Source: Alphaproteobacteria bacterium
Lineage (GTDB): Bacteria > Pseudomonadota > Alphaproteobacteria > JAPYRI01
NCBI GenBank assembly: GCA_029941135.1
Contig: JAPYRI010000013.1
Span: forward strand, 1-43,601
DNA: 43,601 nt
Direction of reading: 5' to 3'
Below are positions 6,630-11,587 of this stretch, piece by piece. Position numbers and translations under genes: made by a program. The notes under the pieces were generated by a model, which was not told the origin of the DNA, made no database searches, and saw only the letters and a list, made by a program, of their open reading frames with translations. Positions within the stretch are counted from its first letter, which is position 1; each line of letters starts with the position of its first letter.

Positions 6630-7595
6630 ATGTCGGACACCAAACATGCCAAAGTTTTGATCGTCGGCTCGGGCGCAGCAGGCTGCACTGCCGCCGTCTA
6701 TTCCGCCCGTGCATGCCTGGATCCGGTCATGGTGCGCGGCCTCCAACCTGGCGGTCAACTCACCATCACCACTGACGTCGAAAACTACCCGGGATTTGCC
6801 GAGGCCATACAAGGCCCCTGGCTGATGGAGCAAATGGAGGCCCAAGCCGCCAACGTGGGCACCGAGCTCATTGATGACATCATCACCGATGTGAATTTTA
6901 CACAACAACCCTTTAGGTGCACGGGTGACAGCGGCGCCGAATACAGCGCCGACACGGTGATTATTGCCACCGGCGCGCAAGCTCGATGGCTGGGGCTCGA
7001 CAGCGAGCAGCGCTTCCAAGGATTTGGCGTATCCGCTTGCGCCACCTGCGATGGCTTTTTCTACCGGGACCGGGACGTTATGGTCATCGGCGGCGGTAAT
7101 ACGGCGGTTGAAGAAGCGCTGTACCTCACCAATTTTGCCAACAAAGTAACACTTGTCCATCGGCGGGATACCTTCCGTGCCGAAAAGATTATGCAGCAAC
7201 GGCTGTTCGCCAGTGAAAAAGTGAAAGTGATTTGGGACTCCGTCCTGGACGAAATTATCGGCACCGAAGATCCTTTGGGTGTCACCAGCGCGAGCATCAA
7301 ACATGTGAAGTCGGGAGAACTGACCAATGTGTCGGTGGATGGCGTTTTCATCGCCATTGGCCACTCCCCCGCGACCGAACTATTCGTTGGTAAGCTTGAA
7401 ATGGATGACGGTGGGTACTTGATCACCGCGCCTGACAGCACGGCAACCAATGTGCCTGGCGTTTTCGCCGCAGGGGACGTCAAAGACAAAATTTACAGGC
7501 AGGCCGTCACCGCCGCGGGCATGGGTTGCATGGCGGCACTGGAAGCCGAAAAATTTCTTGCATCGCACGCCGATGAAAGCCTGGCCGCAGAGTAA
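6630..7595 (+). CDS. trxB: Thioredoxin-disulfide reductase
   Basis: This 321-residue flavoprotein transfers electrons from NADPH to thioredoxin. It shows the FAD-binding GSGAAGCTAAVYSAR near residue 12, the NADPH-binding GGGNTAVEEALYL near residue 153, and the redox-active CATC pair at about Cys137 and Cys140, just where low-molecular-weight TrxB enzymes have it. The C-terminal FAD motif GVFAAGDVKD is present. The start is supported by GGGAGAG about 5 bases upstream of the ATG. A 350-base stretch with no gene on this strand follows, containing a probable small RNA. All catalytic residues are intact. Confidence 0.97.
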   Translation: MSDTKHAKVLIVGSGAAGCTAAVYSARACLDPVMVRGLQPGGQLTITTDVENYPGFAEAIQGPWLMEQMEAQAANVGTELIDDIITDVNFTQQPFRCTGDSGAEYSADTVIIATGAQARWLGLDSEQRFQGFGVSACATCDGFFYRDRDVMVIGGGNTAVEEALYLTNFANKVTLVHRRDTFRAEKIMQQRLFASEKVKVIWDSVLDEIIGTEDPLGVTSASIKHVKSGELTNVSVDGVFIAIGHSPATELFVGKLEMDDGGYLITAPDSTATNVPGVFAAGDVKDKIYRQAVTAAGMGCMAALEAEKFLASHADESLAAE

Positions 7596-7781
7596 CCCAA
7601 GCCTCTGGAACCTTGTTCGATTTGAATGACGACGACTTTCCGGAGTGCTAAAGGCCCTTTAATTAACAATGTTTTAGATCAATTTAGCGGTTGATTTTCT
7701 AGGCTCCTAATATCGGGGTTGAAGTCTCTTTTCAGCACCCCACATATTAACCATCGGGTGTTACTTGGCATCCTTCGATAC

Positions 7782-7937
7782 GGTCTCTGGGCGCACCTCC
7801 CCTCTGTACCCCCGCGCTCGGGACCGGGTTGGTTTGCGATTGGCTCCCTTCCGCAAATCAACCGGACTTACGTCTCCCAGACGTAGAGCCTCCCTGTCAG
7901 ACTTGGCCGGGCCCCGGTAATGGGCCCGGCTCTTTTT
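7782..7937 (+). ncRNA. Candidate small RNA with C-rich (CUCCC) hairpin loops
   Basis: Three stem-loops and a terminator lie in tandem here. Hairpin A pairs 7782-7794 with 7814-7825 (GGTCTC, a one-base bulge, GGGCGC against GCGCTC and GGGACC) and leaves a 19-base loop starting ACCTCCCCT. Hairpin B pairs 7827-7838 with 7852-7863 (12 pairs including one G-U) and its 13-base loop contains CTCCC. Hairpin C pairs TACGTCT with AGACGTA (7869-7885) around CCC. GAGCCTCCCTG follows in a single-stranded stretch before the terminator at 7906. Repeated CCUCC-like loops could pair with Shine-Dalgarno sequences, as in several alphaproteobacterial small RNAs. The 5' end is not fixed; a TAATAT at 7708-7713 has no good -35 partner. 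It could instead be the trxB 3' untranslated region. It lacks the 6S, SRP, tmRNA and RNase P signatures I know. Confidence 0.6.
7906..7937 (+). terminator. Rho-independent terminator
   Basis: A perfect 9-base-pair GC stem, GCCGGGCCC (7906-7914) with GGGCCCGGC (7922-7930), closes a 7-base loop and is followed at once by TCTTTTT. The U-tract exists only for plus-strand transcription, so it ends the candidate small RNA or the trxB transcript. The broken sigma-factor gene converges on it from the other strand. Confidence 0.9.
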
Positions 7938-7948
7938 ATACGCCTATA

Positions 7949-8557
7949 TTATTCTGTCCGTCGATCAATTCGGGTAATTCCGCCATTCGCCAGAACACGG
8001 TTGCGCTGTCCCAGAACATGGGTTCGCCGCCACCGCGGGGGACGTACATGAACACCCGTGTGCCCGCGCGCGGCTGACCAGTTGACGCCAAGCAGCCGGC
8101 CGCGCTCGAGAATTAGGGTAACTTGGTTGTAGTCGTAGTCAAACACGTCATGCAGCAGAAACGCCGCTCGCTCGGTCGGGCTAAGTTGTTCCAACAGCAT
8201 CAGCATGGCGGTTGATAAGCTGTCGAGCAACTCGGTGCTTTGGTCGGGCGCGGCGAAGGGCGCTTCCGACGGATCAGCGGACGATCCGTTCAGTAAGGGC
8301 TCGGGCAGCCAAACCCCCACGTAACTTTCCCGGCGCACCCGGGCCGAACGCAGGTGATCGATGGCGAGGCGAGTTGCGGCTGTGGTGAGCCAAGCCTTGG
8401 GCGAACGCACTTCACGGTTGTCAGTTTTTTGCCAGCGCAGGTACGTTTCCTGAACCACGTCCTCCGCATCGGCCACCGACCCCAGCATCCGATAGGCGAT
8501 GCCGGTCAAATAGGACCGATGCTCATCGAAAACGTTGGCTGGACTTTGCGGGGTCAT
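7949..8557 (-). pseudogene. ECF41-type RNA polymerase sigma factor, truncated after region 4 begins
   Basis: The first ~150 residues are a clear ECF sigma factor of the SigJ/ECF41 type. Region 2 includes YRMLGSVADAEDVVQETYLRW and SPKAWLTTAATRLAIDHLRSA; region 4 begins LSPTERAAFLLHDVFDYDYNQV. At about residue 151 (near base 8107), where the DNA-recognition helix and then the fused SnoaL-like regulatory domain of ECF41 proteins should follow, the sequence turns into Arg-rich unrelated residues and stops at 202. Family members are usually near 290 residues. Without the recognition helix it probably cannot read -35 elements. Its start lies 3 bases after the distal TAA of the upstream decarboxylase-like frame, so the pair was an operon. 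I call it a probable pseudogene; a sequencing error could rescue the frame only partly, because the C-terminal domain is missing altogether. Confidence 0.75.
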
Positions 8558-10606: not shown

Positions 10607-11587
10607 TCAACGGTATAGTTTTTCACCCTTGATGTCTTCGTAGAGGTCCGCAACCTCATCACCATAGCCGTTGAACAGCAGAGTTGGAATTTTTCGGCCC
10701 GTCGCCAGATCGCGCTCTCGGGCCTGGCTCCAGCGCGGATGATCAACCTCCGGATTGACGTTGGCCCAAAAGCCATATTCCCGCTGATTGATTTCTTCCC
10801 AAAAGCTTTTTGGGCGGCGCGATACGAATTTAAAGCGCACGATCGATTTGATGGATTTGTAACCGTACTTCCACGGCACAGCCAAGCGAAGCGGTGAGCC
10901 AAATTGCTTGGCCAGGGGCTTTCCGTACACGCCCGTCACCATAAAGGCGAGGTCATTGGTAGCCTCTTTGAGGGTTAGTCCTTCACTGTAGGGCCACGGA
11001 TACCAAAACTGTTTTTGTCCGGGCGCCACCTCGGGGTCCATGAAAGTTTCCATAACCACGTACTTGGCTGAACTGAGTGGCTCCGCGAAATCGATCAATT
11101 CGGCCAAGGGAAAACCGCTCCACGGCACGACCATCGACCAAGCTTCCACACACCGGTGCCGGTAAATGCGCTCTTCCAGGGGCATTTTTTTGATCAATTC
11201 GTCAATGCCGATGGTGAACTTTTTCTCGACCAGTCCATCAATCTCGATGGTCCAAGGGCGGATCTCCAATTTCTGCGCGGCGAGGGCAATTTCTTTATGG
11301 GAGCCGAACTCGTAAAAATTGTTGTACCGGGAGGTCAATTTCTCCGGCGTAATATCGCGCCCGCCTTCGAAACCGTTATTACGATCTACGGGATACAAGT
11401 GCGCGGTCGGATCGGCTACCGCCGCCAGCGCCTGCCCGACGCTCAAGCCGGTTCCAAAACCAGGCAAACTCGCCGCCGCAATACCTAAGCCCAGGCCTTT
11501 AACAATCTCACGTCGGTTACGATAACGGCTCTCACTGGTGACCGCACTTTCAGGCAGTTCCCAGCTTCGGGGTTTTTTTATCAGCAT
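10607..11587 (-). CDS. msrP: Protein-methionine-sulfoxide reductase, molybdopterin-containing catalytic subunit
   Basis: This 326-residue protein matches MsrP (YedY), the periplasmic enzyme that repairs oxidised methionines using a molybdopterin cofactor. The N-terminus carries a twin-arginine export signal, NRREIVKGLGLGIAA, at residues 24-38. The molybdenum-ligating Cys is in RHRCVEAW (Cys146), and the family stretches PWSGFPLAELI and GSPLRLAVPWKYGYKSIKSI are present. The protein ends TLLFNGYGDEVADLYED, as in the family. Its usual membrane haem partner MsrQ is not next to it; the downstream neighbour is a convergent SDR gene. Molybdopterin genes lie about 14 kb further on. Confidence 0.95.
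   Translation of the reverse strand: MLIKKPRSWELPESAVTSESRYRNRREIVKGLGLGIAAASLPGFGTGLSVGQALAAVADPTAHLYPVDRNNGFEGGRDITPEKLTSRYNNFYEFGSHKEIALAAQKLEIRPWTIEIDGLVEKKFTIGIDELIKKMPLEERIYRHRCVEAWSMVVPWSGFPLAELIDFAEPLSSAKYVVMETFMDPEVAPGQKQFWYPWPYSEGLTLKEATNDLAFMVTGVYGKPLAKQFGSPLRLAVPWKYGYKSIKSIVRFKFVSRRPKSFWEEINQREYGFWANVNPEVDHPRWSQARERDLATGRKIPTLLFNGYGDEVADLYEDIKGEKLYR

Follow-up and report, generated by a model that had tools for sequence, protein, structure and literature searches.

A conserved structured RNA downstream of trxB in an alphaproteobacterial genome resembles the AbcR, SorX, and MmgR small RNAs

We analyzed a stretch of alphaproteobacterial DNA of 43,601 nucleotides (the window) and found that positions 7867-7937, comprising hairpin C, CCUCCCUGU, and a terminator, are a real, conserved structured RNA. 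It very probably belongs to a trans-acting small RNA of the type represented by AbcR, SorX, and MmgR, which lies at an ancestral trxB-(vtlR)-abcR-(msrP) locus and would block the translation of several mRNAs; its expression, 5' end, Hfq binding, targets, and repression we infer. The features of the locus are as follows.

6630-7595, plus strand: trxB, thioredoxin reductase (TIGR01292, 398 bits, above the cut-off), conserved upstream neighbor
7719-7748, plus strand: weak promoter-like pair TTGAAG - 17/18 - ACATAT/CATATT (8/12 matches), its position fitting the -10 of relatives
7756-7773, plus strand: possible relic of a 5' hairpin, GGGUGUUACUUGGCAUCC (consensus of relatives gaUGUUGC-N3-GCARCAuc)
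7782-7825, plus strand: hairpin A, predicted, with a large loop containing ACCUCCCCU (fold, stability against shuffled sequence)
7827-7863, plus strand: hairpin B, predicted, loop GGCUCCCUU partly closed (fold; relatives have their CUCCUCCC-loop hairpin at this place)
7869-7885, plus strand: hairpin C, conserved and covarying; its CUCCCA (7874-7879) equals AbcR motif M1
7886-7904, plus strand: single-stranded segment with CCUCCCUGU (7889-7897) and GACUU
7905-7937, plus strand: intrinsic terminator with a 10-bp stem and a U-tract (fold, covariation)
7949-8557, minus strand: SigJ-like sigma gene, downstream neighbor
10607-11587, minus strand: msrP (NF003767, 415.9 bits), a convergent gene farther downstream that is part of the same conserved block

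The sequence and its predicted folds agree with a preliminary description, which had placed three hairpins, a single-stranded CCUCCC (7889-7894), and a strong plus-strand terminator within 7782-7937, at a convergent intergenic site that does lie between trxB (plus strand) and the SigJ-like gene (minus strand). The whole element folds with -72.5 kcal/mol (z -3.67), and one of 200 shuffled sequences was equally stable. When each part was folded separately, shuffled sequence was clearly less stable than hairpin B (-19.2 kcal/mol, z -4.6), hairpin C (-7.0 kcal/mol, z -3.5), and the terminator, and moderately less stable than hairpin A (-18.0 kcal/mol, z -2.1). The three hairpins had also been described as exposing C-rich loops. 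In hairpin A, the 19-nt loop with ACCUCCCCU is predicted to be fully open. A 2-bp GG/CC helix (pairing probability ~0.9) partly shuts the GGCUCCC loop of hairpin B, and in hairpin C the tri-loop CCC alone is unpaired, most of CUCCCA being part of the upper stem. The four CUCCC motifs within the 156 nt of the element form the densest such cluster of the window, the sole place on either strand with at least four per 156 nt, and a motif scan detected no GGGAG inside 7782-7937. The 202-aa SigJ-like frame beside the terminator aligns with no more than roughly the initial 170 of the 293 positions of its model and is truncated or frameshifted.

In a blastn search with a 201-base query, many genomes belonging to this class matched its 3' 70 bases, whereas the part upstream of them gave no blastn matches above chance. 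The cleanest relatives have TACGTCTCCCAGACGTgAaGCCTCCCTGTnnnACTTGCCGGGCC-terminator in common. From 45 aligned sequences we built a covariance model, R1, which recovers region 7867-7937 with 67.8 bits (E 5.6e-15) and has this locus as its single match in the genome concerned. The window is itself among the 45 sequences, so that its score arises partly by construction, and independent support therefore comes from the blastn matches and the sub-threshold Rfam matches presented below. R1 was found in 87 of 190 sampled genomes that have only their class in common with the window. CCUCCC is present in all 45 rows of the alignment and CUCCCA in 29 of them. For the structure made up of hairpin C and the terminator, 84.5% of cells are paired, compared to 71.8% in shuffled and 28-48% in slid controls. 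Compensatory changes in the stems, which had been set beforehand as a test, are present in both: changes on both sides occur in 12 of 15 pairs (six of seven in hairpin C, six of eight in the terminator). The R1 match, the conserved CCUCCC, and the covarying stems of hairpin C and the terminator together place the window in a vtlR-linked group of RNAs. The most conserved part is the single-stranded segment with CCUCCCUGU, which is likely the main seed. Of the pairing segments proposed earlier, the single-stranded CCUCCC is thus upheld, while the three loops no longer appear as the main pairing sites. Five loci without an R1 match (L034, L039, L042, L046, and L103) nevertheless carry CUCCC segments downstream of vtlR, several of them in hairpins, and a terminator-like end; given these segments in R1-negative loci, the vtlR-linked group is probably wider than R1.

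In the relatives, the R1 match lies downstream of trxB and then of a VtlR/LsrB-type LysR gene. A VtlR homologue is encoded in 79 of the 87 R1-positive genomes compared to 27 of the 103 R1-negative ones (Fisher p 1e-20, a guide only, as the genomes are related). The RNA follows vtlR within 1.5 kb on the same strand in 61 of the 79, at a distance of 128-512 nt (median 207 nt). This order corresponds to the place of abcR1/abcR2, which are located downstream of trxB-vtlR in Agrobacterium and Sinorhizobium of the Rhizobiales (PMC7486931, PMC8844928). A convergent msrP gene is often found 3' of the small RNA in relatives, for example in L033. The window has kept the trxB-sRNA-msrP block without vtlR, and other genes occupy the ~2.7 kb that precede msrP. 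No vtlR orthologue scored above threshold in the draft genome to which the window belongs, and its best LysR protein is 28-29% identical to VtlR. The gene is likely absent, if not with absolute certainty, since the draft consists of 178 contigs. The same trxB-sRNA order without vtlR occurs at a second locus (L027, genome G051).

To describe the 5' region of the family, 38 relatives (L114, L007, L036, L044, and 34 others) were aligned on a 5' inverted repeat, gaTGTTGC-N3-GCARCAtc. They show a fixed promoter layout 30-120 nt upstream of their 38 cores, in which a VtlR box (published as GCAT-N3-TG-N3-T; PMC7486931) lies ~66 nt and an AT-rich -10 element ~18 nt upstream of the repeat. At least six of the seven box positions are present in this slot in 30 of the 38, compared to 2.6% expected by chance. 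Because of these distances, transcription in the relatives probably starts just before the repeat. Its pairs vary compatibly, G-U pairs included, which suggests that it would form a 5' RNA hairpin, although a palindrome would equally be expected of a DNA site. The same distances led us to reject the repeat (TGTTGC-N3-GCARCA) as the VtlR operator. Four Sneathiella-type loci carry three tandem RNA copies 3' of vtlR (L053 5183-5742, L048 5087-5679, L038 5172-5716, and L064 5079-5659), mostly with an upstream box and a 5' repeat of their own.

Upstream of the element in the window, a consensus promoter was not found; the best hand-scored candidate, with 8/12 matches, is at chance level for the window. 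Matches to the VtlR box are likewise at chance level (4/7 positions in the slot, 5/7 anywhere), consistent with the loss of vtlR. Positions 7756-7773 agree with the repeat consensus at nine of 12 positions (chance ~14%, not significant alone) and fold as a 7-bp hairpin. This sequence might be a relic of the 5' hairpin, in which case a transcript of ~183 nt, with a start at about position 7755, could be envisaged. The stable RNA could instead be a 3'-UTR product of the trxB mRNA, cut by RNase E and lacking a promoter of its own, which we regard as possible but rather less probable than independent transcription. Such processing would agree with trxB ending 187 nt upstream with no terminator in between, with the missing vtlR, and with the lack of a good promoter; moreover, the best-scoring Rfam relative, SorX, is produced in this way, by RNase E cleavage from the 3' UTR of the ompR-like RSP_0847 mRNA. 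Against it, the relatives possess their own promoter layout of VtlR box, AT-rich -10, and 5' repeat, and in the window region 7640-7760 is AT-rich and may retain the 5' hairpin relic.

No Rfam family matches the element at its gathering score. The best match, SorX of Rhodobacter sphaeroides (RF02784), covers the whole 73-position model with 38.7 bits (E 4.2e-8), which is 7.9 bits below the gathering score of 46.6, and shares the succession of a hairpin, CUCCCUGU, and a terminator. Further sub-threshold matches at the element are to SorY and to suhB/MmgR (RF00519; 26 bits, gathering 41). The ar15 model of AbcR (RF02345, gathering 40 bits) does not match at the locus, its best score elsewhere being 13.9 bits. 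Of the 20 loci that were scanned, most vtlR-linked members fall below every Rfam cut-off.

Despite the lack of an ar15 match, the locus resembles that of AbcR1/AbcR2 (alpha-r15; Rhizobiaceae, Brucellaceae) in the trxB gene directly upstream, in the location of its relatives at trxB-vtlR/lsrB, in the terminator, and in the tandem copies of some relatives. Shared with AbcR are also the M1 motif CUCCCA (PMC5461406) in a hairpin, here predicted to be mostly paired, and a second C-rich single-stranded motif, published as GUUCCC/UUCCCCUC for AbcR compared to CCUCCCUGU here. Unlike AbcR, the element carries two further C-loop hairpins upstream. VtlR control has been demonstrated for some AbcR copies, whereas here neither a vtlR orthologue in the draft genome nor a VtlR box was detected. 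As in NfeR1 (alpha-r14, RF02344; PMC8844928), a single small RNA combines several anti-Shine-Dalgarno motifs here, but the element has no ar14 match. In Pelagibacterium, an ar14 (NfeR1 family) match lies ~0.9 kb downstream of vtlR (L089 5760-5884).

With MmgR/SisA-D (alpha-r8), the element shares a weak hairpin, a single-stranded CCUCCCU seed, GACUU, and a terminator. This common CCUCCCU...GACUU-terminator core and the 26 bits obtained with the suhB model would fit an alpha-r8 RNA in place of an AbcR-locus RNA. We nevertheless consider such an assignment improbable: the score is 15 bits below the 41-bit cut-off, sequences with a typical alpha-r8 appearance reach only ~24 bits with R1, whereas most vtlR-linked members score 50-86, and alpha-r8 genes usually adjoin an N-formylglutamate amidohydrolase gene, which is not the case at this locus. 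The RNA in the window is also probably longer than MmgR/SisA-D. A candidate second copy elsewhere in the genome, resembling alpha-r8 (C8:52536-52613, 20.6 bits), was discarded, as inspection revealed no hairpin-seed-terminator layout. Overall, the earlier proposal of an alphaproteobacterial anti-Shine-Dalgarno small RNA proved right in kind, given the class-wide conservation, the compensatory changes, the resemblance that the RNA bears to SorX and MmgR, and its place at the AbcR locus.

The region between the 5' repeat and the core is more variable, with zero to two hairpins in the relatives. In 70 related loci, including the window, the sequence 5' of the core contains 47 CUCCC motifs on the RNA strand, mostly in hairpin loops, compared to five on the opposite strand and 12.9 +/- 3.6 in shuffled sequences; the strand bias is large, even though the loci are related and not independent. 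Sneathiella-type loci have a CUCCUCCC-loop hairpin immediately before the core, and in an Emcibacter locus (L060) hairpin C is preceded by two hairpins with C-rich loops, as in the window. Since CUCCC-loop hairpins recur in only about half of the relatives, the other half being without such a loop, hairpins A and B would represent a recurrent kind of hairpin and not conserved parts. The unproven conservation of A and B, and the service that the terminator would render to trxB, could suggest that the element merely terminates trxB transcription, its C-rich loops having arisen by chance, and that there is no regulatory RNA. This notion is largely refuted and highly improbable, as conservation across the class is highest in the segment that precedes the terminator, the flanking stems covary, the RNA is linked to vtlR and not to trxB alone, and Sneathiella-type loci hold tandem copies.

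For the trans-acting small RNA that we favor, we propose the following mode of action. The RNA would be transcribed rightwards, probably from ~7755, or be processed from the trxB 3' UTR, and would end at the terminator at 7905-7937. Hfq, for which the genome carries a gene (110 bits), probably holds the RNA via the terminator U-tract. CCUCCCUGU would pair with GGGAGG-type ribosome-binding sites and thereby block the translation of several mRNAs, with CUCCCA in hairpin C, and possibly loops A and B, assisting. Such pairing is likely in view of the hfq gene and of experiments showing that SisA represses by anti-Shine-Dalgarno base pairing via a UUUCCUCCCU segment and AbcR1/2 by base pairing via two anti-Shine-Dalgarno motifs. 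In the genome concerned, CAGGGAGG occurs before an ATG at nine exact sites compared to none for the reversed pattern, a control that ignores Shine-Dalgarno bias. The genes at these sites, as read from their sequences (RuvA, EgtB-like, cupin, AMP-ligase, hydrolases, and SDR), have no common theme, and none of the nine sites precedes an ABC-transporter gene, the class whose mRNAs AbcR represses in an Hfq-dependent manner. In most relatives, VtlR is encoded just upstream and its box precedes the small RNA; as both are missing here, control of the RNA would have changed.

The points of interest of this locus are its class-wide extent and the loss of VtlR together with its box. We see about an even chance that the vtlR-linked RNAs constitute one ancestral, class-wide family of the AbcR type, largely missed by Rfam 15 and built from the conserved core and zero to two CUCCC-loop hairpins between the 5' hairpin and the core, and that in this lineage the RNA has survived the loss of its activator and come under different control. 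The coverage gap in Rfam is exposed by the vtlR-linked members at the 20 scanned loci, most of which lie under all cut-offs. The logic of the AbcR locus, with thioredoxin reductase, a LysR regulator, and an anti-Shine-Dalgarno RNA, would extend beyond the Rhizobiales to a large part of the Alphaproteobacteria, and the window may offer a natural example of an RNA retained despite the loss of its regulator and operator.
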